Source: Gemmobacter fulvus
GTDB taxonomy: Bacteria; Pseudomonadota; Alphaproteobacteria; Rhodobacterales; Rhodobacteraceae
NCBI RefSeq assembly: GCF_018798885.1
Contig: NZ_CP076361.1
Location: 2,757,501-2,821,500, forward strand
Length of the DNA: 64,000 nucleotides
Direction: 5' to 3'
The translations under genes and the position numbers were made by a program. The notes below the pieces were generated by a model. That model searched no databases and had not been told where the DNA came from. It saw only the letters and a program-made list of their open reading frames with translations. Positions within the stretch are counted from its first letter, which is position 1, and every line of letters begins with the position of its first letter. Positions 34,673 through 48,890 of this stretch are shown piece after piece.

Positions 34673-35056
34673 TCAGCCGTCCGTGGCGCTGAATTGCAGC
34701 GTCACGGCCTGCCAGCCTTCGGGTTTTGCGACCAGCGTGGCAATCAGCAGCGCGCCGATGCGGCCAAGGTCGCGGCCTTCGGCATCGACAAGGCCAGACA
34801 GGACGAACCGCTGATGCAGCACGGCGGCCCCCGGCCCCAGCGGGCGCAGCTTGCCCTTGCCAGTGACCAGACGGGCGCGGCTGAACAGGCCGGTCAGTTC
34901 TGCCTCGAAGGCAGCGGTGATGGCGGTGCGGCCTTCGCACCACAGCCCGGTCAGGGTCAGCATATCTGCGTCCTCGCAGGCCAGTTGTGCCAGCCCCTTG
35001 GCGTCGCGCGCGCTCCAGAGGGTGACGAAGCTGCGGGTGAAATCATCCGGCGTCAT
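34673..35056 (-). CDS. SnoaL-like/SgcJ-type NTF2-fold protein
   Basis: 127 residues with the NTF2-like pattern: DDFTRSFVTLWSARDAKGLAQLACEDADM at the N-terminus and WCEGRTAITAAFEAELTG, then a beta-rich half. The family includes polyketide-modifying and unrelated enzymes and binding proteins, so the function is open. I chose 35056 rather than 35107. Its first 14 bases overlap the flavoenzyme gene upstream, so the two are translationally coupled. Confidence 0.7.
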   Translation of the reverse strand: MTPDDFTRSFVTLWSARDAKGLAQLACEDADMLTLTGLWCEGRTAITAAFEAELTGLFSRARLVTGKGKLRPLGPGAAVLHQRFVLSGLVDAEGRDLGRIGALLIATLVAKPEGWQAVTLQFSATDG

Positions 35057-36422
35057 GCGGCGGCACCAATTTTCCGGGGTTGAGGATATTGTCGGGGTCC
35101 AGCGCATGTTTCAGCGTGCCCATGACCGCCCAGGCGTCACCATGTTCGGCCTGCATATAGGCCAGCTTGCCCATGCCGATGCCATGTTCGCCGCTGACCG
35201 TGCCGCCCAACCTTAGGGCGCGTTCGGCCATGCGGCTGGCCAGCGCCTTGGCGGTTGCGGCCTCGGCGCGGCTTTCGGAGTCAATCAGCAGGATGGCATG
35301 AAAATTGCCATCGCCCACATGGCCAAGGATCGGCCCCGGAATACCGCTTTCGGCGATATCGGCCCGCGTTTCCTCGACCGCCTCGGCCAGTTTTGAAATG
35401 GGCACACAGACATCGGTCACAATCGCCGTGGCACCGGGTCGCGAGGCGAGGCAGGCCGGGTAGGCGGCATGGCGCATCCTCCACAGCGCGCTGCGCTCCT
35501 CGGGCTTTTCGGCCCAGCGAAACCCGGTGCAGTCATGGCTTTCGGCAATCTCGCCAAAACGCGCGGCCTGTTCGGCGACACCTGCGGGAGAGCCGTGAAA
35601 CTCCACCAGCAAATGCGGGGCCAGCGGCAGGTTTTGCTGGGCATGGGCGTTGCAGGCGGCAACCGCCGCCGGATCGAGAAATTCGATCCGCGCCATCGGC
35701 AGACCGGACTGAATGGTTTCGATCACGCAATCGACCGCCGCCCCCATGCTGGCAAAGGCGCAGACCGCCGCCGACACCGCTTCGGGCTGGCCATGCAGGC
35801 GCAGCGTCAGTTCGGTGATCAGACCCAGCGTGCCCTCTGACCCGACAAACAGCGCCGTCAGATCATAGCCCGCGCTGGATTTCGGCGCGGCCGTGCCGGT
35901 GCGGATCAGCCGACCATCGGCCAGCGCCACCTCCAGCCCCAGCACCGCGTCGCGCATCGTGCCATAGCGCACCGCCGTCGTTCCCGAGGCGCGGGTGGCA
36001 GCCATACCGCCCAGCGAGGCATTGGCCCCCGGATCGACCGGGAAGAACAGCCCCGTCGCCCGCAATTCGCGGTTCAGATCTTCGCGTGTGATGCCGGGCT
36101 GCACCCGCACCAGCATGTCTTCGGGGCTGACCGACAGCACGCGGTTCATGCGTACGAAATCCACACTCACGCCGCCATGCAGCGGCAGGGCATGCCCCTC
36201 CAGCGAAGTGCCGGCCCCCCAGCCGATCACCGGCAGCCGATGTGCGGCGCAGATCCGCAGGATCGCGGCCACCTCGGCGCTGGTTTCGGGAAAGACCACT
36301 GCATCGGGCAGGCCGGTGCGGATATGGGTCTCGCTTTGCGCATGGGCGGCGCAGACGGGGCGGGCGGTGCTGAACCTGTCGCCCAGCAGGGCGGAAAGGG
36401 CCGAAAGTGCGGGGGCTGTCAT
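35043..36422 (-). CDS. FAD-linked oxidase, D-lactate dehydrogenase (cytochrome) type
   Basis: 459 residues. The PCMH-type FAD domain (about 35-215) shows IGWGAGTSLEGHALPLHGG and the phosphate loop GANASLGGMAATRASGTTAVRYGTM. The C-terminal FAD-oxidase domain has SSAGYDLTALFVGSEGTLG, GHVGDGNFH and SGEHGIGMGK. The family oxidises D-lactate, glycolate or related 2-hydroxyacids; this one is closest in layout to the single-subunit D-lactate dehydrogenase rather than to three-subunit GlcDEF. There are no glcE/F partners nearby. AAGGA precedes the ATG. Confidence 0.82.
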   Translation of the reverse strand: MTAPALSALSALLGDRFSTARPVCAAHAQSETHIRTGLPDAVVFPETSAEVAAILRICAAHRLPVIGWGAGTSLEGHALPLHGGVSVDFVRMNRVLSVSPEDMLVRVQPGITREDLNRELRATGLFFPVDPGANASLGGMAATRASGTTAVRYGTMRDAVLGLEVALADGRLIRTGTAAPKSSAGYDLTALFVGSEGTLGLITELTLRLHGQPEAVSAAVCAFASMGAAVDCVIETIQSGLPMARIEFLDPAAVAACNAHAQQNLPLAPHLLVEFHGSPAGVAEQAARFGEIAESHDCTGFRWAEKPEERSALWRMRHAAYPACLASRPGATAIVTDVCVPISKLAEAVEETRADIAESGIPGPILGHVGDGNFHAILLIDSESRAEAATAKALASRMAERALRLGGTVSGEHGIGMGKLAYMQAEHGDAWAVMGTLKHALDPDNILNPGKLVPPHDAG

Positions 36423-36487
36423 GCCGGGCGTCCTTGCATTTTCGCCACCCTAAAGAAGCGGGCAGGCAAGGGAAAGGCCGGGCGGTA

Positions 36488-37129
36488 TCAGCGGGCGGCA
36501 ACCTGCTCAATCGCCACAGCCAGATCGCCATAGCCGGTAAAGCGGCGTTCATAGGCAAGGCCCAGCCGCGCGGCGCAGTCTGCCGCCTTGGCATCCAGAG
36601 CCGGATCGTCGGTCTGCGCCTGATACACCAGCTTGGTGTAATTGCCGAACATCATGCGGATCAGTTCCGGGTGTTTGTCAAACCCCATGGGCCGCCAGAC
36701 AAAGGCATCGAACTGCCGCACCAGAAAATCGGTGAGGTAGAAGGCGGTGATCTCGTCCTCTGCGATCTTGGCGAAGGTGGCATTGCCTTCAAAGAACGAA
36801 TAACAATGCGGGCCTTCCAGCATTTCCACGCCCAGCTCGGCGCATTTGGCCTGCAACAGGCCGCCGGTGCCGCAATCGGCATAAAGGATGAACACCGCCT
36901 CATAATCCGCGCGATGTTCGGCCACGGCGGCGGCCACGGCATCGGGGATGCGGTCGGGCCAGAGATGCAGATTGGCGGGCAGACATTGCAGATCCAGATG
37001 AGCCCAGCCGCCCGCGCGTTTCACGGCCAGCACCTCATGTGCCAGCGCCCCGCAGGCAATCAGCAGGACGCGGCCCTGATGCGCGGGGGCGAGGCCGGTC
37101 TCGGTCAGCTTTACATCGTCGGGGCGCAT
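36488..37129 (-). CDS. DUF1638 protein
   Basis: 213 residues. Typical start RVLLIACGALAHEVLA with a central ILYADCGTGG and the PHCYSFFEGN block; the conserved cysteines at about 26, 87 and 106 could bind a metal. DUF1638 genes are often found with corrinoid proteins and trimethylamine-type methyltransferases, so a role in methyl-group or corrinoid metabolism is likely but unproven. AAGGAAGG lies before the ATG. A terminator separates it from the corrinoid gene upstream, so it may be made separately. Confidence 0.82.
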   Translation of the reverse strand: MRPDDVKLTETGLAPAHQGRVLLIACGALAHEVLAVKRAGGWAHLDLQCLPANLHLWPDRIPDAVAAAVAEHRADYEAVFILYADCGTGGLLQAKCAELGVEMLEGPHCYSFFEGNATFAKIAEDEITAFYLTDFLVRQFDAFVWRPMGFDKHPELIRMMFGNYTKLVYQAQTDDPALDAKAADCAARLGLAYERRFTGYGDLAVAIEQVAAR

Positions 37130-37197
37130 GGCAGCCTTCCTTAGGCGTCTGGCTCAGGTGTGGGGATGGGGCGGCAGCGCGTCAAGGTCCACCCGCA

Positions 37198-37228
37198 AAA
37201 GAAAAGGCGCGCCACCGGGCGCGCCTTT
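37198..37228 (-). terminator. Rho-independent terminator of the corrinoid gene
   Basis: AAAGGCGCGC, 6-base loop, GCGCGCCTTT (10 perfect pairs). Reading the minus strand, it is followed by TCTTTTG. It lies 22 bases after the corrinoid stop. Confidence 0.88.
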
Positions 37229-37250
37229 GCAAAAACGAACCAGCGCGCGA

Positions 37251-37949
37251 TCAGGCGCTGAGCTGGTTGTGCTTGCGCGCCACGAACTGCTTGGCGGTTT
37301 CCACCGCAACGGCGGCATCGCGGCAATAGGCATCCGCACCGATTGCCCGGCCAAATTCCTCGTTCAGCGGCGCACCGCCGACCAGCACGATGTAATCCTC
37401 GCGCATGCCTTTTTCTTTCAGCGTGTCGATGACGACCTTCATGTAAGGCATGGTCGTGGTCAGCAGCGCCGACATGCCAAGAATGTCAGGCTTTTCGGCT
37501 TCCAGCGCCTCGAGGTATTTCTCGACCGAATTGTTGATGCCCAGATCCAGCACCTCGAACCCGGCGCCTTCCATCATCATGCCGACAAGGTTCTTGCCGA
37601 TGTCATGGATGTCGCCCTTCACGGTGCCGATCACCATCTTGCCCATGCGCGGCGCGCCGGTTTCGGCCAGCAGGGGCTTCAGGATGAACATGCCCGCCTT
37701 CATGGCATTGGCGGCCAGGAGCACTTCGGGCACGAACAGGATGCCGTCACGGAAATCGGCGCCCACGATGGTCATGCCGGCGACCAGTGCCTTGGTCAGG
37801 ACATCATAAGGGGTCCAGCCGCGTTCCAGCAGGATCGTCACGCCCTCTTCGATCTCTTCTTTCAGGCCGTCATAGAGATCGTCGTGCATTTGCAGGACCA
37901 GCTCATCGTCGGACAGGTCAGAGAGGATGATATCGTCTTCGTCAGCCAT
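37251..37949 (-). CDS. corrinoid (B12-binding) methyl carrier protein
   Basis: 232 residues. The N-terminal helical cap domain (about 12-100) has VPEVLLAANAMKAGM. The B12-binding Rossmann domain begins VIGTVKGDIHDIGKNLVGMMM with the DxHxxG motif D113, H115, G118, where the histidine coordinates cobalt. Such proteins (MtbC/MttC/MtgC type) shuttle a methyl group between a substrate methyltransferase and tetrahydrofolate. No MttB- or MtbA-like partner is in the window. I chose 37949 (AGGAG 7 bases upstream); longer frames are spurious. Confidence 0.88.
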   Translation of the reverse strand: MADEDDIILSDLSDDELVLQMHDDLYDGLKEEIEEGVTILLERGWTPYDVLTKALVAGMTIVGADFRDGILFVPEVLLAANAMKAGMFILKPLLAETGAPRMGKMVIGTVKGDIHDIGKNLVGMMMEGAGFEVLDLGINNSVEKYLEALEAEKPDILGMSALLTTTMPYMKVVIDTLKEKGMREDYIVLVGGAPLNEEFGRAIGADAYCRDAAVAVETAKQFVARKHNQLSA

Positions 37950-38088
37950 GGAAGGGCTCCTGCGGGGATGTGTCTCTCCTTCAATGCGCCGGATGTGCGG
38001 GCGGGACTTTTCGCTTTGCGACATGGCGGTAGGTAAAGGCGACAGCGAGAGCCCTTGTCCTTGCAAACCCCGGCTGCCCCTTGCGAAT

Positions 38089-39277: not shown

Positions 39278-40672
39278 TTACACCGTATGCAGATACAGAT
39301 CGAAGTCCACCTCTGACACCGTGCGCGCCACGCGGGCGTATTCGGCGGCCTTGATGGCGGTAAAGGTGCGGTGCATGTCTTCGCCCAGGGCGTCTTTCAG
39401 AAAGGCGGAGGCCTTGGCCGCCTCGATGGCCTGCCGCCAGTCCACCGGGATCGGCGGCGCGTCCGGCGCATCGGCATAGCCATTGCCGGTGGTTTCGGGG
39501 CCGGGGTCGATCTTGCCGCGCAGACCGTGGCGCAGGCCCGCAAGCACGGTCGCCGCCACTAGATAGGGGTTGGCATCCACACCCGCCGGGCGATGTTCGA
39601 TCCGCCGCGCCTTGATGTCACCGGCGGGGATGCGCAGCGCGACCGAGCGGTTGTTCACCCCCCATGTCGGGCTGACCGGCGCATAGGACTGGCTGGCAAA
39701 CCGCCGCCAGCTGTTGGCATGGGGTGCAAAGACCAGCATGGATTCACCCATGGTGGCACGCATCCCGCCCAGAGCGTGCAGGATCGTGTCGGACCACTGG
39801 CCCTCCTGCGCCTCCATGAACACATTGCGCCCCGCATCATCCTGCAACGACACATGGAAATGCATGCCCGAGCCGGCATAGTCCTCGTTCGGTTTGGCCA
39901 TGAAGCAGGCAGTCACGCCATGGGCGCGGGCCTGCGCGCGCACGATGCGTTTCAGCCGCATCAGATCATCCGCCGCCTGCATCACATCGGCGCGGTAATG
40001 CAGAGTCAGCTCATATTGGCCGGGCGCATATTCCGAGATCATGGTTTCGGCCATGATGCCCGCCTTGGCCGCCCCGGCATAGATGTCGGAAAACAGCGGC
40101 AGCATCCCGTGCAGGTGATCGACGGAATAGACCTCGGTCTTGCTGGAGGGGCGGCCATCCAGCACGTCACGGGCGGGCACCATCTTGCCGTTCGCGTCAC
40201 GCTCATTGGCCAGCAGGAAGAACTCCAGCTCGAACGCGCCGGCCGGATGCAGCCCTTCGGCGGCCAGCGCATCGACCTGCCGTTGCAACGCGTGGCGCGG
40301 ATCGGAGGTCATCTTGTTGCCCTCCAGATCATACATCGACATGAACACCTCGCCGCGTGGCGGCTGGGTGTTGTGCAGCGGCTTCAGCGTGCCGGGGATC
40401 GGCCAGGCGCGCAGATCCCCATCGCCCTGATCCCAGATCAGCCCGGTTTCATGCACATCCTCGCCGCAGATATCCAGCCCGAGGATGGAGATCGGCAGAT
40501 GCCGTCCGCTTTTGTAAAAGCCGGACAGTTCATGGCGGCGGATGATCTTGCCGCGCCCGATGCCATTGGCGTCGTGCAGCACGATGTCAAACGCCTCGAT
40601 CTCGGGATGGGCGGCGAGGAAGGCTTCGGCCTCGGCAAGGGTGGAGCCGGAGGGGGAGGGGAGATCGGTCAT
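39278..40672 (-). CDS. glutamine-synthetase-family ligase (gamma-glutamylamine synthetase-like)
   Basis: 464 residues, in the GlnA type III/PuuA range. It has the beta-grasp N-domain (EAFDIVLHDANGIGRGKIIRRHEL) and the catalytic barrel with FELEFFLL, GSGMHFHVSLQDD, NNRSVALRIP and RRIEHRPAGVDANPYLVAA. These residues bind ATP, metal and glutamate. PuuA-type members attach glutamate to amines rather than ammonia, so the likely substrate is an amine such as putrescine or agmatine (inference). The gene overlaps the class III aminotransferase stop (ATGA), so the two are coupled. Confidence 0.82.
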   Translation of the reverse strand: MTDLPSPSGSTLAEAEAFLAAHPEIEAFDIVLHDANGIGRGKIIRRHELSGFYKSGRHLPISILGLDICGEDVHETGLIWDQGDGDLRAWPIPGTLKPLHNTQPPRGEVFMSMYDLEGNKMTSDPRHALQRQVDALAAEGLHPAGAFELEFFLLANERDANGKMVPARDVLDGRPSSKTEVYSVDHLHGMLPLFSDIYAGAAKAGIMAETMISEYAPGQYELTLHYRADVMQAADDLMRLKRIVRAQARAHGVTACFMAKPNEDYAGSGMHFHVSLQDDAGRNVFMEAQEGQWSDTILHALGGMRATMGESMLVFAPHANSWRRFASQSYAPVSPTWGVNNRSVALRIPAGDIKARRIEHRPAGVDANPYLVAATVLAGLRHGLRGKIDPGPETTGNGYADAPDAPPIPVDWRQAIEAAKASAFLKDALGEDMHRTFTAIKAAEYARVARTVSEVDFDLYLHTV

Positions 40673-42057
40673 ATCGCAAACAGCTCTGTCAGAATTTCGT
40701 CAAAGGCGGCAATCAGGCGGTCAATCTGGCGGGTTCTGGTCGCCGGGCTGATCAGCATCATGTTGTGGAACGGGGCAATCAAGCAGCCGCGGTTCAGCAG
40801 GGCGGTGTGCAGTGCTGCCTCCACCTGTGGCTGATGCGCAGCGGCGGCTTCGGCACCGTTGCGCAGCGGGCCGGGGGCGCAGATGAATTCAACCCGCGCG
40901 CCGACGCGCACGACATGCCAAGGCGCCTGATGCGCGGCAATCACCCGCGACAGGCCCTTGGCCAGACGGGCGGCGCCTTTTTCCATGCGGGCATAGGCCT
41001 TTGCCGTCATCACCTCGGCCAGCGTGGCGCGCAGGCAGGCGAATTGCATCGGATTGGCCGAGAGTGTGGTGCCCATGCCGGAATGGCCCGCCGGGCGCTG
41101 CGCGTCATAGGCGGCAAAGCGGCGGGCCAGGTCGGCGGTCATGCCCCAGACGGCGGTCGGCATGCCGCCTGCGACGCATTTGCCGACCACGAACATGTCG
41201 GGCACCAGCCCATGCACCGCGGTATAGCCGCCAAGGCCCGAGGAAATCGTATGGGTCTCGTCGATGATCAGCACCGCGCCATTGCGGGTGGCAAGGTCGC
41301 GCAGCCCGGCATGGAAACCGGGATCGGGCAGGACCATGCAGGAATTGGTCATCACCGGCTCGGTCAGGATGGCGGCAATCTCGCCCGAGGCCAGCGCCGC
41401 CTCGACAGCCGTCAGATCGTTGAATTCGACGCAGGTGGCGGTCTGCGACAGATCGCTGATCTGGCCGACAAGACCGGGGCGGGCGACGGTCTGACCATCG
41501 TGCAGCGCCACCATCGTGTCATCGACCGTGCCATGGTAACAGCCGTTGAACACCAGCACCTTGGGCCGCCCGGTGACCGCCCGCGCCACCCGCAGGGCAA
41601 AGCGGTTGGCATCGGTGGCGGTGGTGGCGATCTGCCATTGAAACGCGCCGAAGCGCTGGGTCAGCAGATCTGCGGCGGCCAGCGCAGCCTCGGTCGGCAG
41701 CATATAGGTCAGGCCATGGCGCGCCTGTTTGCGGATGGCCTTGGCCACCGGGGCTGGGGAATGGCCGAACATGGAGCCGGTATCGCCCAGACAGAAATCG
41801 TCGATGCCGTAGCCATCCAGATCGGTCAGGGCCGCGCCCTTGGCCTCGGCCACCAGCATCGGGAAGGGCATCGGCCAATCCTTCATCCAGTGCATCGGCA
41901 CACCATCCAGAAAATGCTGGCTGCCCGCCGCCAGCGCCGCGCGGGTTTTCGGGCGCGATGCGGCAAAGCGCTTGGCTTCGCGGGTGGCCAGCGCCGTGAG
42001 CCGCTCGGGGCGGATACCGGCGATGCGGGGGTCTGGGGTCGGCTGGGCTTTGGCCAT
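40669..42057 (-). CDS. class III PLP aminotransferase (GSAM/omega-type)
   Basis: 462 residues. The PLP lysine is K293 in VVGKCVAGGMPTA and the ring-nitrogen Asp is D266 in IIDETH. The region normally reading SGTEA is here TATDAN (about 146-151), a variation that may mark a subfamily. Class III enzymes act on omega-amino groups or make aldehydes from amines, and this one may supply or consume the aldehyde of the AruI reaction. The substrate is not known. GGAG lies before the ATG. It may start its own transcript from the gap at 42058-42249. Confidence 0.82.
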   Translation of the reverse strand: MAKAQPTPDPRIAGIRPERLTALATREAKRFAASRPKTRAALAAGSQHFLDGVPMHWMKDWPMPFPMLVAEAKGAALTDLDGYGIDDFCLGDTGSMFGHSPAPVAKAIRKQARHGLTYMLPTEAALAAADLLTQRFGAFQWQIATTATDANRFALRVARAVTGRPKVLVFNGCYHGTVDDTMVALHDGQTVARPGLVGQISDLSQTATCVEFNDLTAVEAALASGEIAAILTEPVMTNSCMVLPDPGFHAGLRDLATRNGAVLIIDETHTISSGLGGYTAVHGLVPDMFVVGKCVAGGMPTAVWGMTADLARRFAAYDAQRPAGHSGMGTTLSANPMQFACLRATLAEVMTAKAYARMEKGAARLAKGLSRVIAAHQAPWHVVRVGARVEFICAPGPLRNGAEAAAAHQPQVEAALHTALLNRGCLIAPFHNMMLISPATRTRQIDRLIAAFDEILTELFAI

Positions 42058-42099
42058 GGGTCAGCTCCGGCAACGGGGGATGACCGGCTTATGCGGGAT

Positions 42100-42113
42100 A
42101 ATTTGATCAAATT
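42100..42113. promoter_or_regulatory. perfect 14-bp palindrome, possible operator
   Basis: AATTTGATCAAATT is a perfect palindrome 43 bases before the class III aminotransferase start. It stands out in this GC-rich sequence. The regulator is unknown; it is unlike the operator at 45729. Confidence 0.5.
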
Positions 42114-42169
42114 CAAGGTGGCGTTTTGCCAAAGTGACAGATCGCCCAGATATCACCCAGAAAGGGGGG

Positions 42170-42206
42170 GCCAGCGACGCGGGCATCGAGCCCGCCCCGC
42201 TGGCAT
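42170..42206 (-). terminator. hairpin after the AruI-like gene
   Basis: A nested inverted repeat: CCAGCG..GCTGG outside and GCGGGC..GCCCGC inside. It lies 44-80 bases after the decarboxylase stop on the minus strand. There is no T-run, so it may only reduce read-through. Confidence 0.45.
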
Positions 42207-42249
42207 TGCCATGGGATGCGCAACCGGCGCGCGGTGACCGACGGCGGGA

Positions 42250-43821
42250 TCAGTCGGCGCGGATCTCGATCAGGCGCGGGCCGGTGCAGCGGGGGCCGAG
42301 GGCGCGGCGCAAGTCCTCGGCCTTGCTGGCGACCGACTGGAACGGCAGATCGCAGGCGGCAGCGAAGGGCTCCAGCCGCAGCGGCGTCGGATCGCAGCCC
42401 AGCACCGGCACGTTGACGGCGCGCATCGCCTCGGCAATCTCGCCAAAGCCATGATTGTTCCATACAAGGAAGGTGACGGGCAGTTGTTCGTCCCGCGCGG
42501 TGCGCAGCTCTCCGGGCGAGAATTGCAGCCCGCCATCGCCGATCAGGCAGATCACCGGCGTGCCGGGGGAGGCGAGGGCGGCGCCGATGGCGGCACCGGG
42601 GCCAAAGCCAAGCGCGCCATAGCCGGTGGCGGCGTTGAACCAGCCACCGGGGCGATCGTGGTCGTAGTATAGATTGCCCGCATAGACCGGCTGGGTGCTG
42701 TCGCCCACGATCAGCGCGCCGGGCAGGGTGTCGCGGATCGTGTCGAGCAGGGTGATCTGGTGGCGCATCGCCTCGGTCAGCTCGGCCAGCGCCGCTGTGC
42801 GGGTCTCGGCGGCGCGGGCTGCCCCGTCAGCCTGTCGGGCCGACAGCAGTGGCAGCAGGCCGACAAGGCTGGCTCCGCAATCGGCCTGCAGGGTCAGGGC
42901 GGCGGGGTGGCGGGCGAGCTGTTCGGCGCAAAGATCGACGCGGATCATGCCCGACACATCGGGAAAGCCGCCGCGCAAATACATATCGTAATCGGTGGGG
43001 CCGAATTCGGTGCCAAGCGCCAGAATCTGATCCGACGCGGCGATCAGCGCCCGGGTCGCCTCCAGCGAGGGCGAGGCAGGCACGCAGAGCGGATGGCCAT
43101 GGAGCAGCCCGCGCGCATTGGCGGTTTGCACCACCGGGGCATCCAGCGCTTCGGCCACGGCCAGCACTGCGGCCCCGCATTGGCGCGCGCCGCCGCCGAC
43201 AAGGATCAGCGGGCGGCGGGCGGCATTGAGTCGCTGCGCCGCCTCGGCCAGCTGCGCCGGATCGGGATGGCGCATCGGCGCGGGCAGCGGCGGGCGCGGC
43301 AGCGCGGCGGGCAACGGCATCACATCGGTGGGCACCTCGATATGCACCGGGCCGGGGCGGCCCGTGGTCAGCGCGGCAAAGGCGCGGGTGAGCACCGGCT
43401 CCAGCATGTCGGGGCTGGTGATCTGGAAGCTGGGGCAGAGGCTGCGCACCATCGCGCCCTGATCCGGCAATTCATGCAGCAGGCCAAGCCCCTGACCCAG
43501 ACTGTCGCGCCGGTTCACGCCGGAAATGATCAGCACCGGCACCGAATCCTCGCGTGATTGCGCCATGGCGGTCAGCGCATTGGTCAGGCCGGGGCCAGTG
43601 ATCACAAAGGCCACGCCGGGTTTGCCCGATACCCGGGCATAGCCATCGGCCATGAAGGCTGCCCCCTGTTCGTGGCGCGCGGTGACATGGCGGATGCCCG
43701 AGCCGGGCAGGCCGCGATAAAGCTCGATCGTATGCACGCCGGGGATGCCGAACACCACTTCGACGCCACGCGCCTTCAGGCCCGCGACAAGGGCTTCACC
43801 GACGGAAAGGGCTTTGGTCAT
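42250..43821 (-). CDS. aruI: thiamine-diphosphate decarboxylase, 5-guanidino-2-oxopentanoate (2-ketoarginine) type
   Basis: 523 residues. The N-terminal ThDP domain has the catalytic Glu in TARHEQGAAFMADGYAR (about 49), and the C-terminal domain has the GDG...NN cofactor motif (IGDGGLQFSPGEL to VWNNHGFGE, about 425-460). Best fits AruI, which decarboxylates 2-ketoarginine to 4-guanidinobutyraldehyde and CO2; benzoylformate or phenylpyruvate decarboxylase-like enzymes are alternatives. I chose 43821 (GGAA upstream) over 43851. It follows the AruH-like gene, which supports the arginine assignment. Confidence 0.75.
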   Translation of the reverse strand: MTKALSVGEALVAGLKARGVEVVFGIPGVHTIELYRGLPGSGIRHVTARHEQGAAFMADGYARVSGKPGVAFVITGPGLTNALTAMAQSREDSVPVLIISGVNRRDSLGQGLGLLHELPDQGAMVRSLCPSFQITSPDMLEPVLTRAFAALTTGRPGPVHIEVPTDVMPLPAALPRPPLPAPMRHPDPAQLAEAAQRLNAARRPLILVGGGARQCGAAVLAVAEALDAPVVQTANARGLLHGHPLCVPASPSLEATRALIAASDQILALGTEFGPTDYDMYLRGGFPDVSGMIRVDLCAEQLARHPAALTLQADCGASLVGLLPLLSARQADGAARAAETRTAALAELTEAMRHQITLLDTIRDTLPGALIVGDSTQPVYAGNLYYDHDRPGGWFNAATGYGALGFGPGAAIGAALASPGTPVICLIGDGGLQFSPGELRTARDEQLPVTFLVWNNHGFGEIAEAMRAVNVPVLGCDPTPLRLEPFAAACDLPFQSVASKAEDLRRALGPRCTGPRLIEIRAD

Positions 43822-43869
43822 GGGCAGATTCCTGTGCAAGCAGAGGTGCAACCGGGGACGGCGTGGCGC

Positions 43870-45057
43870 TCAGGCCGCCTTGTCCAGCAGACGGGCGGCA
43901 TGGCGGGCGATGCGGGCGCAGCCTTCCAGAACGATGTCATCCGGCTGGCTGAGGGCGAAGCGCAACCAGCCCGACAGCGCCGCGCCAAAGCTTTCACCGG
44001 GCATCACCGCCACATGCTCGGCCTCCAGCAGAGAGGCCGCGAAAGCCTCGCCCGACAGCCCGGTTTCACGCACGTCGATCAGGGCGAACATGCCGGCATC
44101 GGGGCGATGCACGCGCAGGCCCGCCGTGCCATTCAGCCGGTCATGAATCAGGCCAGCGCGGCGCTGAAAACGGTCGACCATGCCGGGGGCCACGGCAGAG
44201 GGATGGTTGACGGCCTGTGCCGTCATATCCGCGATGAAGGGCTGATTGCCGAACAGCATGGTTTCCGACAGCGGCAACAGCCGGTCGGCAAAGTCTGCCG
44301 GGCCGATGCACCAGCCCGAACGGAAGCCGGGGGCGGCATGGGATTTGGAGATCGAGGCACAGGCAATGCTGCGCTCCGCCAGTTCCGGCAGATCAAGCGG
44401 CGAGGCAAAGGCCACCCCGTCAAAGACCAGATCCTCATAGACCTCGTCCGACACGATCCACAGATCATGCTGCACCGCCAGCGCGCCAAGCGCCGCGATG
44501 TCGTCGCGGGTCAGCACCGCGCCGGTGGGGTTGTGTGGCGTGTTCAGAAACAGCACCCGGCTGCGCGGCGTGATCGCCGCCGCCACATCTGCCACGCGCA
44601 GGCGGAAGCCGTGTTCGGGGCGCAGTGTCACCGGCACGGGCTGCGCCCCCGTGGCGCGGATCAGTCCTTCATAGGTGGCATACATCGGATCGCCGATGAT
44701 CACCTCGTCGCCGCTTTCGACCAGCGCCATCAGCACCGCAAACAGCGTGGTCTGCGTGCCCGGAAAACACATCACCTGTTCGGGGCCGAAATGACGGCCG
44801 CGCCGGGTGCTGTAGCGGGCGGCGAGGGCGCGCAGCAGGCCCGGCTCTCCGCGGCCATTGGAATAGCCGGTGCGACCGGATTCCATCGACCGGGCGGCGG
44901 TCTCGATCAGTTCGGGCGGGCAGGGGGCATCGGGTTCGCCAATGGTGAATTCCAGCACCGGGGTGCCTGCGGCCTTCATCTTGCGGGCGCGGGCGTGGAT
45001 TTCCCATTTTGCCCCGCCCAGACCGGCGAGACGTTCAGTGATGCTGGCGTATTTCAT
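43870..45057 (-). CDS. aruH: class I/II aminotransferase, AruH-like (arginine:pyruvate transaminase)
   Basis: 395 residues, a fold type I PLP enzyme. The PLP lysine lies in SISKSHAAPGFRSGW (about 236), with VLFLNTPHNPTGAVL and IVSDEVYEDLVFDG. Length and layout follow P. aeruginosa AruH, the arginine:pyruvate transaminase that feeds AruI. Aspartate aminotransferase-like specificity cannot be excluded. GGAG stands before the ATG, which overlaps the tetR stop (ATGA), so it is coupled to the regulator. Confidence 0.72.
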   Translation of the reverse strand: MKYASITERLAGLGGAKWEIHARARKMKAAGTPVLEFTIGEPDAPCPPELIETAARSMESGRTGYSNGRGEPGLLRALAARYSTRRGRHFGPEQVMCFPGTQTTLFAVLMALVESGDEVIIGDPMYATYEGLIRATGAQPVPVTLRPEHGFRLRVADVAAAITPRSRVLFLNTPHNPTGAVLTRDDIAALGALAVQHDLWIVSDEVYEDLVFDGVAFASPLDLPELAERSIACASISKSHAAPGFRSGWCIGPADFADRLLPLSETMLFGNQPFIADMTAQAVNHPSAVAPGMVDRFQRRAGLIHDRLNGTAGLRVHRPDAGMFALIDVRETGLSGEAFAASLLEAEHVAVMPGESFGAALSGWLRFALSQPDDIVLEGCARIARHAARLLDKAA

Positions 45058-45719
45058 GGGGCGGACTCCGGTAAGGGGGCACCGTCTGTCGGTGACAGAT
45101 ACGGCAGAAGATCATGGCCGGTGATGGCACCGACAGCTTGCAGCGCGATTTGTTCCAGCTCGCCCGGGGCAAAGGCCGAGGGCAGCGCGCAACCTTCAAG
45201 CCACAGACCGTCGATCACGCCGTTGCAGGCGATGGCCATGGCGCGGTGGCGGGTCGGGTCATTCGGTGCGGGCAGGGCGGCGATCAGGCCCTGCAAGGTA
45301 TCGCGGTAGCCCAGATAGGTTTCGGCATGGACAGCGGCCATATCCGCATCGCGCCGCACCTGATGGATGAAGCCGGCCCAAAGCCCCATGCGGCGCGGAT
45401 CGAGCACCGGCGGGCGCAGCGCTGCGGCCACATAATCGGCCAGACGGGCGCGGGGATCGGCGGGGGCCTGATCGAGCACCGTGGCATTGTCGCTGTTCAT
45501 GCGCTGCATCAGCGCGCGATATGCCTCGCGGGTCAGTTCTTCCTTGGACTGGAAGTAATGGCGGATCAGGCCGGGGGTGACGCCTGCCCGATCCGCGATG
45601 GCGCGCACCGTGGCCGATCCGGGCCCGCCTTCGGAGATCAGATCAAGCGCTGCGGAAATCAGCGCATCGCGCCGCCGCTCTTCGCCTTCGCGTCTGAATT
45701 TGCGCCGTTCGCCGGTCAT
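45054..45719 (-). CDS. TetR-family regulator (BetI-like C-terminal domain)
   Basis: 221 residues. The N-terminal HTH is RRDALISAALDLISEGGPGSATVRAIADRAGVTPGLIRHYFQSKEEL. The ligand domain has MGLWAGFIHQVRRD and the VIDGLWLEG segment seen in BetI/AcrR-type regulators. It likely represses both its own operon and the divergent importer through the palindrome at 45729, 9 bases from its start. The ligand is unknown, perhaps a guanidino or keto acid (inference). Confidence 0.85.
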   Translation of the reverse strand: MTGERRKFRREGEERRRDALISAALDLISEGGPGSATVRAIADRAGVTPGLIRHYFQSKEELTREAYRALMQRMNSDNATVLDQAPADPRARLADYVAAALRPPVLDPRRMGLWAGFIHQVRRDADMAAVHAETYLGYRDTLQGLIAALPAPNDPTRHRAMAIACNGVIDGLWLEGCALPSAFAPGELEQIALQAVGAITGHDLLPYLSPTDGAPLPESAP

Positions 45720-45728
45720 CGTCGCCTC

Positions 45729-45748
45729 AATTATACACTTGCATAATT
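45729..45748. promoter_or_regulatory. TetR operator candidate in the divergent promoter
   Basis: AATTATACACTTGCATAATT: the ends AATTATAC and GCATAATT are inverted repeats at 7 of 8 positions. It sits in the 73-base gap between tetR (minus) and the ABC ATPase (plus), so one operator could control both. Confidence 0.6.
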
Positions 45749-45792
45749 ACAAACTTGTGGTCTTACTGCAATAAGGTAATCACGGAGTCCCG

Positions 45793-46569
45793 ATGACGCA
45801 GAGTGAGGGCGGCAGCCGACCTGAGGCAATCCGAATTGAAGGGTTGCACAAATCTTTCGGCCCGATCGAGGTGCTGAAAGGCGTGTCCCTGACCGCGCGC
45901 GAGGGTGATGTTGTCGCCATCATCGGCGGTTCCGGCTCTGGCAAATCCACCATGCTGCGCTGCATCAACTTTCTGGAAACGCCGTCGGCAGGCAAGATCG
46001 TGATCGGTGGCGAGGCAGTGGAGATGCGCGCGGATGGCACGCCCGCCAATCGTCGCCAGTTGGAGCGGTTGCGCCAGAGCCTTGGCATGGTGTTCCAGCA
46101 ATTCAATCTGTGGACCCACAAGACCATTCTGGAAAACCTGATCGAAGTGCCGGTGCATGTGCTGGGCTGCCCTAAACCCGAGGCCATCTCACGGGCGCAA
46201 AAACTGCTGGACCGGGTGGGGCTGGCGCAAAAGGCCGATGCCTATCCGGCCTTCCTGTCAGGCGGGCAGCAGCAGCGCGCCGCCATCGCCCGCGCCCTGT
46301 GCATGGAGCCGCGCGCGATGCTGTTCGATGAACCGACCTCGGCGCTGGACCCCGAACTGGTGGGCGAAGTGCTGAACGTGATCCGCGATCTGGCCGCCGA
46401 AGGTCGCACCATGATCCTCGTGACCCATGAAATGAAGTTCGCCCGCGAAGTGGCGAGCCATGTGATCTATCTGCACAACGGCCTGATCGAAGAAGAAGGG
46501 CCGCCCGATGCCCTGTTCGGCGCGCCCCGGTCCGACCGGCTGAAACAATTCCTGAAAAGCGTGGGATAA
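45793..46569 (+). CDS. polar amino acid ABC transporter ATP-binding protein
   Basis: 258 residues. Walker A GGSGSGKST, Q-loop MVFQQFNLWTH, signature SGGQQQRAAIAR and Walker B MLFDEPTSALDP place it in the HisP/GlnQ/ArtP family. The long HisP-type Walker A to Q-loop stretch (EAVEMRADGTPANRRQLERLRQ) is usual in transporters of basic amino acids. It drives import with the following three genes. CGGAG lies before the ATG. Confidence 0.9.
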   Translation: MTQSEGGSRPEAIRIEGLHKSFGPIEVLKGVSLTAREGDVVAIIGGSGSGKSTMLRCINFLETPSAGKIVIGGEAVEMRADGTPANRRQLERLRQSLGMVFQQFNLWTHKTILENLIEVPVHVLGCPKPEAISRAQKLLDRVGLAQKADAYPAFLSGGQQQRAAIARALCMEPRAMLFDEPTSALDPELVGEVLNVIRDLAAEGRTMILVTHEMKFAREVASHVIYLHNGLIEEEGPPDALFGAPRSDRLKQFLKSVG

Positions 46570-46603
46570 CCCACCGAACCGACCAACAGCAAAGAGGTAC
46601 ATA

Positions 46604-47374
46604 ATGAAAAAATTCGCCCTGACCCTGACTGCCGCCCTGCTTCTGTCCGGTGCCGCAATGGCCGAAACCGTAAAGGTGGGCATCGCCTCGGAACCCTATC
46701 CGCCCTTCGCCTCGCCGGATGCGTCGGGCAAATGGACCGGATGGGAGATCGAGATGATCGGCGCGGTCTGCAAGGCCGCCGAAATGGAATGCGAGATCGT
46801 GCCCGTGGCCTGGGATGGCATCATCCCGGCGCTGACGGCGGGGCAGATCGACGCGATCATGGCCTCGATGTCGATCACCGAAGAACGCATGCAGACCATT
46901 GATTTCTCGGACAAGTATTACAACACGCCAGCTATGATCGCCGGGGCGAAAGGCGTCGAGATGACGCCCGATGCAGCAGGGCTGACCGGCAAGATCATCG
47001 GTGTGCAGGTCTCGACCATCCACGAAACCTATGTGCAGAAGCACTTCAAGGACGTGGCGGCAGAGATCAAGATCTATACCACGCAGGATGAGGCCAATCA
47101 GGATCTTGTGGCGGGCCGGATCGACGCAACGCAGGCCGACAGCATCGCGCTGGATGCCTTCCTCACCTCCGAAGCCGGGGCTGCCTGCTGCGAGTCCAAA
47201 GGGGCAGTCGCCAGCGACCCCGAGGTGCTGGGCCTTGGCGCCGGGGTCGGGCTGCGCAAGGGCGAGGATGCGCTGAAGGCAAAGTTCAACGCCGGGATCG
47301 CCAAGGTGCTGGAAGACGGCACTTATGAGGCGATTTCCAAGCCCTATTTCGCATCGTCGATCTACGGCGGCTGA
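46604..47374 (+). CDS. polar amino acid ABC transporter substrate-binding protein
   Basis: 256 residues with a Sec signal MKKFALTLTAALLLSGAAMA-ET, so it is periplasmic. The mature protein has GIASEPYPPFASPD, VPVAWDGIIPALTAGQIDAI and MSITEERMQTIDFSDKYYNTP, the pattern of lysine-arginine-ornithine/histidine-binding proteins. A basic amino acid such as arginine is the likely ligand given the neighbouring AruH/AruI-like genes, but opines are also possible. AGAGG stands before the ATG. Confidence 0.88.
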   Translation: MKKFALTLTAALLLSGAAMAETVKVGIASEPYPPFASPDASGKWTGWEIEMIGAVCKAAEMECEIVPVAWDGIIPALTAGQIDAIMASMSITEERMQTIDFSDKYYNTPAMIAGAKGVEMTPDAAGLTGKIIGVQVSTIHETYVQKHFKDVAAEIKIYTTQDEANQDLVAGRIDATQADSIALDAFLTSEAGAACCESKGAVASDPEVLGLGAGVGLRKGEDALKAKFNAGIAKVLEDGTYEAISKPYFASSIYGG

Positions 47375-47379
47375 CGTCC

Positions 47380-48123
47380 GTGCTGGCGCTGATCGGGGCC
47401 GCGGGTGCGGCCTCCACGCTGGAGCTTTTGCAGCTTTCGCCCCCCGGTTGGGGGGCGAACCTGCTGCGCGGATTGATGAATTCGATCCTGATTGCCTCGG
47501 GCGCCTTCGGATTGGGCATCTGCATCGGCATTTTCGGGGCTTACGGCAAGCTTTATGGCGGGCCGGTGCTGCGCGATCTGCTGGGCATTTACACGACAGT
47601 GGTGCGGGCGGTGCCGGAACTGGTGCTGATCCTGATCCTCTATTACGCGGTGACGGATGCGGTGAACCAGCTGCTGATCTCGTTCGGTTATGCGCGGATC
47701 CAGCTGTCGGGGCTGGCGGCGGGCATTGCGGTGCTTGGCGTGGTGCAGGGGGCCTATGCAACCGAGGTGCTGCGCGGGGCCATCCTGGCGGTGCCGGCCG
47801 GGCAGATCGAAGCCGCGCGCGCGATGGGCATGCCTGCCGGGCTGCTCGCGCGGCGGATCACGCTTCCCGCCATGCTGTCCTTTGCCATGCCGGGGCTGGC
47901 CAATCTGTGGCTGGTGGCCACCAAGGATACCGCGCTGCTGGCGGTGGTCGGCTTTGGCGAGTTGACTCAGGAAACCCGGCAGGCGGCGGGCACGACCAAG
48001 GCCTATTTCACCTTCTTCATGGCGGCGGGCATGTTGTATCTGACGCTGTCGATCGGATCGGGCCTGCTGTTCGGGCGGATTGAAAAGTGGGCGCGGCGCG
48101 GCCAGCCGGAGGTGCGCGGATGA
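47380..48123 (+). CDS. amino acid ABC transporter permease (HisQ/ArtQ type)
   Basis: 247 residues with five or so membrane spans. The EAA loop is GAILAVPAGQIEAARAMGMPAGLLARRITLP. The start is GTG with a weak ribosome site 5 bases after the binding-protein stop. It overlaps the second permease by the ATGA at the end. Together they form the membrane heterodimer. Confidence 0.88.
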   Translation: MLALIGAAGAASTLELLQLSPPGWGANLLRGLMNSILIASGAFGLGICIGIFGAYGKLYGGPVLRDLLGIYTTVVRAVPELVLILILYYAVTDAVNQLLISFGYARIQLSGLAAGIAVLGVVQGAYATEVLRGAILAVPAGQIEAARAMGMPAGLLARRITLPAMLSFAMPGLANLWLVATKDTALLAVVGFGELTQETRQAAGTTKAYFTFFMAAGMLYLTLSIGSGLLFGRIEKWARRGQPEVRG

Positions 48124-48890
48124 CCGGGTTCTGGCAAACGCATCGGGTGGTGATGGCGCTGGTCGCGCTGGCGCTGCTGGTCTGGTGTGTGCTGCGGCTG
48201 CGCTGGGAGTGGTTGCCCGAATACCTGCCGCTGGCGGCGGCGGGCATCTGGCGCACGATCTGGATTCTGGCGGTGACGGTGCTGCTGGGCATGACGCTGG
48301 CCATCCCTCTGGGCTTGGCGCAGGCGGTGGGGCCCTGGTATCTGGCCGCACCTGCGCGGGTATTCTGCACCGTGGTGCGCGGCACGCCACTGCTGTTGCA
48401 GCTGTGGCTGCTGTATTACGGGCTGGGATCGCTGTTTCCGCAAATTCCCTGGATCCGGGGCAGTGACCTCTGGCCGATCCTGCGGCAGGCCTGGCCCTAT
48501 GCGGTGCTGGCGCTGACGCTGAGCTTTGCAGGCTATGAGGGCGAGGTGATGCGCGGCGCTTTCCGCAGCGTGCCGAAGGGCCAGCTGGAGGCGGCGCGGG
48601 CGATGGGCATGCCACGCTTCACCATCCTGCGCCGGATCTGGCTGCCGCAGGCGCTACACCGCGCGCTGCCGACGCTTGGTGGCGAGACGGTGTTGCAGTT
48701 GAAGGCCACGCCGCTGGTGGCGACGATCACGGTGGTGGATATCTATGCCGTCTCCAGCCGGGTGCGGCAGGATACCTTCATCACCTATGAGCCGCTGTTG
48801 CTGCTGGCGCTGGTCTATCTGGTGATCACCGGGGTGATCGTGCTGGCCTTCCGCTGGCTGGAGCGGCGGGTGCCCGCCCGCGTCGCCTGA
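48120..48890 (+). CDS. amino acid ABC transporter permease (HisM/ArtM type)
   Basis: 256 residues. The EAA loop is RGAFRSVPKGQLEAARAMGMPRFTILRRIWLPQA, with the conserved VVRGTPLLLQLWLLYYGLG before it. I chose the ATG at 48120 (GGAGG 8 bases upstream, ATGA overlap with the first permease) over 48087. It is the last gene of the importer; a copy of the dispersed 3' element lies 91 bases after the stop. Confidence 0.9.
   Translation: MTGFWQTHRVVMALVALALLVWCVLRLRWEWLPEYLPLAAAGIWRTIWILAVTVLLGMTLAIPLGLAQAVGPWYLAAPARVFCTVVRGTPLLLQLWLLYYGLGSLFPQIPWIRGSDLWPILRQAWPYAVLALTLSFAGYEGEVMRGAFRSVPKGQLEAARAMGMPRFTILRRIWLPQALHRALPTLGGETVLQLKATPLVATITVVDIYAVSSRVRQDTFITYEPLLLLALVYLVITGVIVLAFRWLERRVPARVA

Follow-up and report, generated by a model that had tools for sequence, protein, structure and literature searches.

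The 64,000-nucleotide stretch of Gemmobacter fulvus DNA analysed here (the window) contains a group of genes which we read, with a probability of about two in three, as a TetR arginine/ornithine module adjoining a polyamine gamma-glutamylation cassette under separate control. Two linked pathways of known kinds are more likely than a single new pathway which lacks its middle steps. The genes of the cassette are annotated by family names alone, for example as "transaminase". A conserved palindrome links them to agmatinase, PuuA/PuuB-like and PotF-type genes, so that the cassette gains a testable role, with a polyamine regulon predicted for it.

Layout of the locus

The locus consists of five minus-strand genes and a divergent importer. 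The cluster described in the earlier note was confirmed, since its coordinates and family assignments were all reproduced, including the basic amino acid importer and the TetR gene between importer and enzymes. In the following, the AruH/AspC-like aminotransferase is called AT1, the decarboxylase DC, the class III aminotransferase AT3 and the PuuA-like ligase GS.

39278 to 40672, minus strand: GS, gamma-glutamyl ligase, PuuA-like (Gln-synt_C), nearer PuuA than GlnA
40669 to 42057, minus strand: AT3, class III aminotransferase of the PRK07046 group (713 bits, cut-off 425)
42058 to 42249, minus strand: DC-AT3 gap of 192 bp, promoter region of AT3-GS
42101 to 42112, no strand: palindrome ATTTGATCAAAT inside the 192-bp gap, predicted operator of the AT3-GS cassette
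42250 to 43821, minus strand: DC, TPP-dependent 2-oxo acid decarboxylase, AruI/IlvB1-like (PRK07524, 680 bits, cut-off 500)
43870 to 45057, minus strand: AT1, class I aminotransferase, AspC/AruH-like (by identity to relatives; under every NCBIfam cut-off shown)
45054 to 45719, minus strand: TetR/BetI-type regulator (Pfam TetR_N, TetR_C_6)
45731 to 45746, minus strand: predicted TetR operator TTATGCAAGTGTATAA, between the TetR gene and the importer
45793 to 46569, plus strand: ABC importer ATPase, HisP/LAO type (NCBIfam best match HisP, 340 bits, equivalog cut-off 466)
46604 to 47374, plus strand: substrate-binding protein, Lys/Arg/Orn type (TIGR01096, 217 bits, cut-off 256; Pfam SBP_bac_3)
47380 to 48123, plus strand: importer permease, HisQ type (NCBIfam and Pfam profiles)
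48120 to 48890, plus strand: importer permease, HisM type (ATG at 48120, longer open reading frame from 48087; NCBIfam and Pfam)

The start of DC was set at the ATG at 43821; a longer frame with a TTG start begins at 43851. TetR and AT1 overlap by 4 bp, and so do AT3 and GS. The TATDAN stretch is present in AT3. AT3-GS was also considered as a simple tail of the TetR operon; its own promoter palindrome and the 192-bp gap speak against this.

The TetR module

AT1 shows 59% identity to a protein of Sinorhizobium sp. (K101) and 41% to a putative AruH, so called from its gene context. DC is 56% identical to the S. meliloti (Ak57) enzyme and 42% identical to an AruI-like protein. It lies above the cut-off of PRK07524, the AruI subfamily of NCBIfam, a model which also captures the enzyme of S. 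meliloti and four further ones that were scanned. NCBIfam/Pfam profiles and identities thus bear out the AruH-like and AruI-like family calls made before. The Pseudomonas-like model behind them holds for the families; the nearest characterised pair is instead AspC-IlvB1 of S. meliloti (59% for AT1, to the Sinorhizobium sp. protein, and 56% for DC). In the study on this pair, AspC is active on arginine, ornithine, agmatine and putrescine, IlvB1 has a 7-fold higher activity on 5-amino-2-oxopentanoate, and the pair is reported to act on substrates derived from ornithine and on those derived from arginine (PMC7268258).

For the module in G. fulvus we infer the following substrates and order of reactions. 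The LAO-type ABC importer would take up arginine and/or ornithine, AT1 would transaminate them to the 2-oxo acid, and decarboxylation by DC would yield 4-guanidinobutanal or 4-aminobutanal. An aldehyde dehydrogenase and a ureohydrolase encoded elsewhere may then lead to GABA. The earlier note had stated that dehydrogenase and guanidinobutyrase are absent, which is true for the cluster; in the genome, 7 arginase-family and 22 aldehyde dehydrogenase matches are candidates for these steps. Guanidinobutyrase-like genes are encoded there, and relatives of two ureohydrolase types that occur beside AruI-like genes were found (67-76% and 56-63% identity; no NCBIfam name at E 1e-90). The best of the 22 aldehyde dehydrogenase matches reaches 44% identity.

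The predicted TetR operator TTATGCAAGTGTATAA is expected 0.01 times in the window and is the sole match in the genome at 0-1 mismatch. At two mismatches, the genome contains fewer matches than the reversed control. A looser form of the site was found upstream of 34 of 49 TetR genes, and a TetR-type site was absent upstream of all 124 AT3 genes checked. A second predicted site was not found genome-wide at 0-1 mismatch. The earlier note had named as refuting the location of the dehydrogenase or guanidinobutyrase gene elsewhere under the same regulator; candidates for these genes are encoded elsewhere, but the single TetR site does not place them under this regulator.

Another substrate for this module, such as lysine, histidine or methylated arginine, while AT3-GS would act on the corresponding amine, is a minor possibility, and the corresponding caveat in the earlier note was supported. 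LAO/His-type importers do not discriminate these compounds, and the enzymes under the PRK07524 label are reported to differ in their preferences. Ruegeria, Phaeobacter and Sulfitobacter carry, in the position of AT3-GS, a gene whose annotation is arginine deiminase family protein or dimethylarginine dimethylaminohydrolase, which hints at a modified arginine. Arginine and ornithine are favored by the S. meliloti relatives, which were assayed on substrates derived from these two amino acids (PMC7268258), and by related decarboxylases, which adjoin ureohydrolase genes elsewhere in the phylum, in further families and classes. Nothing on this locus was found in the accessible parts of papers dealing with Ruegeria and the diatoms or algae associated with it.

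The AT3-GS cassette and its palindrome

AT3 exceeds the cut-off of the PRK07046 subfamily, and its structure model is closest to 5YKR/5YKT (48% identity, TM-score 0.93). A haem-type role as HemL is unlikely from its sequence, which scores 220 bits against hemL (cut-off 527) and does not keep the PVR and AFEAGF stretches, presumably the substrate stretches of HemL. GS is 36% identical to E. coli PuuA versus 25% to GlnA, and the alignment shows that the DGSS stretch of GlnA, which we take to have a role in ammonium binding, is missing from GS. Its best NCBIfam matches are gln_synth_III (196 bits, cut-off 470) and GGputSyn (185 bits, cut-off 650), both far under cut-off. Judged by these profiles, GS is not an E. 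coli-type PuuA equivalog. Fold searches confirmed the folds without telling PuuA-like enzymes from ammonia-using ones; with GS, plain glutamine synthetases rank first. Of the four enzymes, which the earlier note proposed to compare by profiles and structure, the profiles placed DC in PRK07524 and AT3 in PRK07046; AT1 and GS stayed under the cut-offs. To our knowledge, no activity has been described for any PRK07046-GS pair. The literature matches listed, which covered few subscription papers, include no work on AT3-GS next to arginine genes.

The palindrome ATTTGATCAAAT is expected 0.01 times in the window. Its core 10-mer was found upstream of AT3 in 19 of the 21 linked units and in 39 of the 73 free ones, and 61 of its 66 occurrences in 1.41 Mb of AT3 loci fall upstream of AT3. 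It was not found in the remaining 2 linked and 34 free units, nor at the more distant AT3-GS pairs of Mesorhizobium-type, Shinella and non-alphaproteobacterial loci. In the own genome, where selected stretches were scanned, ATTTGATCAAAT also precedes an agmatinase gene (442 bits, cut-off 302) and a GS-GATase-GS-PuuB-like cluster, of which the PuuB-like protein is 44% identical to E. coli PuuB. In two relatives (L050 and L166) it is located ahead of PotF-type operons. Further sites were detected at a PRK07480 aminotransferase gene and a hemerythrin gene in L050, and at an aldehyde dehydrogenase gene in a third locus (L056).

The predicted TetR operator differs from ATTTGATCAAAT, and the two modules would therefore be separately controlled. 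AT3-GS would act as a polyamine cassette, in which GS may gamma-glutamylate a diamine, e.g., putrescine, and AT3 may transaminate the polyamine or its gamma-glutamyl derivative, alongside or replacing a PuuB-type oxidase. Because the predicted regulon holds agmatinase and the PuuA/PuuB-like cluster, the breakdown of agmatine would go hand in hand with that of putrescine.

Several other genes occur near AT3-GS. A response regulator-type gene, considered as a candidate regulator, is present in 12 loci. A CbiX-domain gene, found in 36 loci, was also considered for this role, but it is not a regulator. Genes for an FMN-dehydrogenase, trpA and ychF lie nearby in 24, 17 and 15 loci, respectively; rather than functional partners, they resemble a shared insertion site. 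A cyanophycin link, suggested by cyanophycinase-type and synthetase-like genes behind AT3-GS in L041, L042 and L153, is weak, because the first two belong to one genus and L153 is probably the same contig as L041.

Adjacency of the modules and comparison with known systems

GS is the next gene after AT3 in all 80 kept loci (of 588 found), and 7 of the 80 lie beside AT1. Six of the 80 named loci repeat the order TetR-AT1-DC-AT3-GS (Tabrizicola rongguiensis L144, Gemmobacter straminiformis L151, Tabrizicola oligotrophica L152 and the MAGs L154, L162 and L170), which is beyond chance. Within the family searched, AT3-GS is a common pair, with AT3 in 64 of 394 genomes. Both DC and AT3 were found in 31 genomes, DC only in 28, AT3 only in 33 and neither in 302, and AT3 is present in 26 of 29 genomes with a DC of at least 62% identity versus 4 of 29 below 62%. 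The two modules thus co-occur beyond expectation in counts from which kinship was not removed. On the AT3 tree (FastTree; weak support at 40 of 120 inner branches), adjacency requires 13 changes, at least 6 of them forced. It therefore looks selected; a serial pathway would account for this too.

In such a serial route, AT1 and DC would form 4-guanidinobutanal or 4-aminobutanal, AT3 would convert it to agmatine or putrescine, and GS would produce the gamma-glutamyl amine. It fits the gene order, the recurring adjacency and the co-occurrence of AT3 with window-like decarboxylases. We regard it as improbable. This DC is missing from 33 of the 64 AT3-positive genomes (cut-off E 1e-140), and two genomes, a congener and Gemmobacter tilapiae, carry AT1 and AT3-GS in one locus without it. 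AT3 has a separate promoter element in common with agmatinase and PotF-type genes. The route is also chemically circular, because the aldehyde is aminated and the amine then needs oxidising again. Gamma-glutamyl agmatine would leave a PuuB-type step without a free primary amine to act on. Equally doubtful is AT3-GS as a transaminase-type gamma-glutamylation route which also accepts AT1-DC aldehydes. If true, 2-oxo acid decarboxylation, re-amination and capture as gamma-glutamyl amine would bring arginine/ornithine into the polyamine pathway without a PLP amino acid decarboxylase.

The reading of the earlier note, with AT3-GS in place of the middle steps, is thus not supported, given the separate cassette with its shared palindrome, the AT3-positive genomes without DC and the ureohydrolase and dehydrogenase genes elsewhere in the genome. 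The locus cautions against treating neighbouring genes as one pathway, as two modules with different predicted control sites are repeatedly adjacent.

The S. meliloti aspC-ilvB1 genes (SMc02262-SMc02263) share the importer divergent from TetR-AT1-DC (S. meliloti Ak57, Sinorhizobium sp. K101) and an operator of the same form; AT3-GS is not adjacent in these two records, and the substrates were assayed there, whereas those of the G. fulvus enzymes are predicted. Pseudomonas AruH-AruI belong to the same enzyme families and the same NCBIfam decarboxylase subfamily, but identity to an AruHI-like pair is 41% and 42%, and the neighbours are different. The AT3 model resembles 5YKR/5YKT, a P. aeruginosa PAO1 structure under the title glutamate-1-semialdehyde aminomutase, whereas AT3 lacks the two HemL stretches. 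E. coli Puu and Pseudomonas Pau are similar in that GS is nearer PuuA than GlnA and the predicted AT3-GS regulon holds PuuA/PuuB-like, Pot-type and agmatinase genes. In contrast to them, PuuB, PuuC and PuuD types are missing from the AT3-GS cassette, and in every one of the 80 kept loci the ligase gene comes after that of a class III aminotransferase.

Two proposed modules and two predicted operators

Gene calls and family searches bore out the coordinates and families which the earlier note had claimed for the cluster genes.

Features of the cluster in the window (genes from family searches)
39278-40672, minus strand: PuuA-like gamma-glutamyl ligase (GS)
40669-42057, minus strand: class III aminotransferase (AT3)
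42250-43821, minus strand: AruI/IlvB1-like TPP-dependent 2-oxo acid decarboxylase (DC)
43870-45057, minus strand: AspC/AruH-like class I aminotransferase (AT1)
45054-45719, minus strand: TetR regulator
45731-45746: predicted TetR operator, the window copy of the TTAT-C-GTATAA palindrome
45793-48890, divergent from the TetR-to-GS genes: LAO/His-type ABC importer

The cluster probably consists of two modules with two predicted operators. Module 1 comprises the importer and TetR-AT1-DC, module 2 the AT3-GS cassette. Transcription on the minus strand runs in the order TetR, AT1, DC, AT3, GS, with 4-bp overlaps between TetR and AT1 and between AT3 and GS, and a gap of 192 bp separates DC from AT3. 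The adjoining stretch (35043-38066) presumably encodes a GlcD-type FAD oxidase, a DUF1638 protein and a corrinoid methyltransferase-type protein, judged by eye from their resemblance.

A palindrome of the form TTAT-C-GTATAA was found upstream of 34 of 49 TetR genes in a loose-pattern scan, several of the misses being sites cut through by the end of the extracted stretch. The window copy is the sole place in its own genome (4,677,627 bases, 7 contigs) with zero or one mismatch to TTATNCANNYGTATAA. At up to two mismatches there are 9 forward and 9 reverse matches, and the reversed control gave more (26 and 24). None of the 124 AT3 genes scanned has a TetR-type site upstream.

The DC-AT3 gap carries ATTTGATCAAAT at 42101-42112 (expected 0.01 in the window). 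Its core, TTTGATCAAA, was counted for AT3 genes of at least 66% identity, near-copies dropped. It lies within 250 bp upstream of AT3 in 19 of the 21 genes located beside module-1 genes (window included) and in 39 of the 73 others, usually at a distance of 33-51 bp from the start codon. The 1.41 Mb of counted loci contain 66 occurrences, not including the window's own site; 61 of them lie upstream of AT3 genes and the remaining 5 at other places. One of these five (L145) stands just inside a called AT3 start that was probably set too early; the other four, three in L050 and one in L166, are described below. In the full set of 133 AT3 loci, from which copies and distant loci had not been removed, 62 carry the core; it occurs in none of the Mesorhizobium-type, Shinella, Pseudosulfitobacter and non-alphaproteobacterial AT3 loci scanned. 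Upstream of more distant AT3-GS units (L364, L366, L062-L064, L071, L197) it is replaced by GTGATCAC palindromes, which might be read by a related regulator whose site has changed.

Occurrence and function of the AT3-GS cassette

A genome scan found 588 AT3 relatives. Among the best 80, which were kept, GS is the next gene in all 80, and AT1 or DC stands beside the pair in 7 (L144, L151, L152, L154, L162, L170, L192). More distant relatives without GS occur in L070, L369 and L056 (35% identity in L056). Of 196 genomes sampled from the order, 24 have AT3 (E 1e-60); in the family sample of 394 it is present in 64 (E 1e-140), and DC was found in 59 at the same threshold. Both are present in 31 of these 394, DC only in 28, AT3 only in 33 and neither in 302 (Fisher p ~6e-13, merely indicative because the genomes are related). 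Among the 58 DC-positive genomes, own excluded, AT3 accompanies DC of at least 62% identity in 26 of 29 and DC below 62% in 4 of 29. In a FastTree built from 123 AT3 proteins, the 21 labelled as neighbours of AT1, DC or the importer call for 13 changes of that label, at least 6 of them forced by well-supported branches. Adjacency to module-1 genes was thus gained or lost several times.

Module 1 is conserved in Sinorhizobium, Ruegeria, Phaeobacter, Sulfitobacter and many genomes of the window's family; in the Sinorhizobium meliloti Ak57 record AT1 is split into two pieces. What follows 3' of DC varies: AT3-GS directly (L036, L281, L284, L285, L287, L288, L291, L294, L296, L299), an arginine deiminase/dimethylargininase-like gene (L306-L309, L313, L319-L322, Ruegeria/Phaeobacter/Sulfitobacter plasmids), or neither. 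In the last three genera this gene (L066:10603-11385, L067:8036-8818, L072:10612-11394, plus relatives) directly follows the decarboxylase and occupies the position of AT3-GS in the window; the substrate of its product would help to fix that of module 1. In L151 and ten or so relatives (L152, L154, L285 and others) the importer is not beside TetR, and a cation-efflux gene and an SH3-domain gene lie upstream of TetR.

A serial route, in which AT1 and DC would yield an aldehyde, AT3 the amine and GS the gamma-glutamyl amine, is unlikely. In the congener G859 one locus (L370) holds TetR-AT1, importer and AT3-GS without DC, and the only DC match of that genome is 75% identical to the second decarboxylase of the window's genome. 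In Gemmobacter tilapiae (L192) AT3-GS directly follows AT1, and DC was not found at E 1e-60. AT3-GS therefore does not need this DC. The earlier idea of AT3-GS as the middle of an arginine route is not favoured, given its occurrence without this DC, its own palindrome and its polyamine-gene ties.

These ties include its palindrome partners. Both L050 and L166 have TTTGATCAAA in front of a PotF-type substrate-binding gene (PotF is the best NCBIfam match, at 435 bits and 420 bits, respectively, against a cut-off of 636); the Pot-type operon lies directly 5' of AT3-GS in L050, and a further GS intervenes in L166. The L050 ATPase passes the polyamine ABC cut-off (406 vs 356). Also in L050, TTTGATCAAA precedes a PRK07480 class III aminotransferase gene (756 vs cut-off 510), and the gene after it has PuuB as its best E. 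coli match in the comparison set, its best NCBIfam match being L-pipecolate oxidase, below cut-off. L056 has a site before a gene for an aldehyde dehydrogenase that is 36% identical to PuuC. An AT3-type palindrome (L050:447) is also located upstream of a hemerythrin-domain gene.

Among four similar plasmid loci, a histone-deacetylase-family gene, whose product may act as an acetylpolyamine hydrolase, lies 3' of AT3-GS in L062 and L063 and not in L064 and L071. Pseudosulfitobacter AT3-GS is tied to an LAO-type importer, an FAD oxidoreductase and a second GS. In L041, L042 and L153 (one genus), a peptidase S51 (cyanophycinase-type) gene and two cyanophycin-synthetase-like genes follow GS. PA5522 and PA5523 of P. 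aeruginosa are presumably orthologues of the GS/AT3 pair. A published table lists PA5522 (glutamine synthetase) and PA5523 (aminotransferase) among the genes that spermine-NONOate raises (PMC13024080). The ties of the cassette being to polyamine genes, we assign it to the gamma-glutamylation of polyamines; what AT3 itself catalyses is inferred.

Palindrome sites and route enzymes elsewhere in the genome

The own-genome scan covered stretches chosen around GS, ureohydrolase and dehydrogenase genes and gave three palindrome sites: the window, an agmatinase gene (L087; 442 bits vs cut-off 302) and the L058 cluster (GS-GATase-GS-PuuB-like). The latter two sites lie ~110 bp before the called agmatinase start and the first GS, respectively. 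The L058 ligases, one of them scanned as L002, are 36% and 35% identical to PuuA and the oxidase 44% to PuuB. The palindrome is absent at the four other GS genes (L001, L003, L006, L007), the other six ureohydrolases and the eight dehydrogenase loci scanned. One polyamine regulon is probable.

The missing middle of the arginine route described earlier is a gap local to the cluster; ureohydrolase and aldehyde dehydrogenase matches exist elsewhere in the genome. There are seven arginase-family matches. The one at C3:304052 shares 67-76% identity with ureohydrolases of L336-L340 that have AruI-like decarboxylases nearby, and that at C2:180229 shares 56-63% with those in L130, L135, L137 and L142. 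NCBIfam at E 1e-90 names none of the seven but the agmatinase, so "guanidinobutyrase-like" is a label by context. An aldehyde dehydrogenase from a ureohydrolase/AruI-like operon, used as query, gave 22 matches (best 44%). The case that the earlier note had set against its own reading, such genes elsewhere under the same regulator, holds for their location but not for the regulator: no ureohydrolase or aldehyde dehydrogenase match has a close TetR site. A second PRK07524 decarboxylase (C1:1781418) is 50% identical to DC. Its flanks (L124, C1:1772500-1792400) are, on one side, the genes of an ABC importer that includes an SBP_bac_8 protein and, on the other, those of NadA and an FAD-binding protein.

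Comparison with known enzymes

The locus is ordinary in its parts and a useful correction to the one-pathway reading. DC scores 680 against NCBIfam PRK07524 ("5-guanidino-2-oxopentanoate decarboxylase", cut-off 500), which all 5 other decarboxylases scanned, the S. meliloti enzyme included, also exceed. IlvB1 of S. meliloti is reported to be seven times more active on 5-amino-2-oxopentanoate, and AspC to accept arginine, agmatine, ornithine and putrescine (PMC7268258). For these reasons the PRK07524 label leaves the DC substrate unfixed. The proposed likeness of DC to AruI holds at the level of this model and that of AT1 to AruH at the level of the family, but an AruHI-like pair of a possibly pseudomonad genome is only 41% and 42% identical to AT1 and DC, whereas a Sinorhizobium sp. 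relative reaches 59% to AT1 and the S. meliloti decarboxylase 56% to DC.

AT3 scores 713 against the PRK07046 group model (cut-off 425). Its predicted structure (mean pLDDT 86.6) is closest to 5YKR/5YKT of P. aeruginosa PAO1, at 48% identity. GS falls below the cut-offs of both the type III glutamine synthetase model (196 bits, cut-off 470) and GGputSyn (185 bits, cut-off 650), and is therefore claimed by no family model. Plain glutamine synthetases ranked highest in a fold search with its predicted structure (mean pLDDT 76.5). By sequence, GS is closer to E. coli PuuA (36% identity) than to GlnA (25%).
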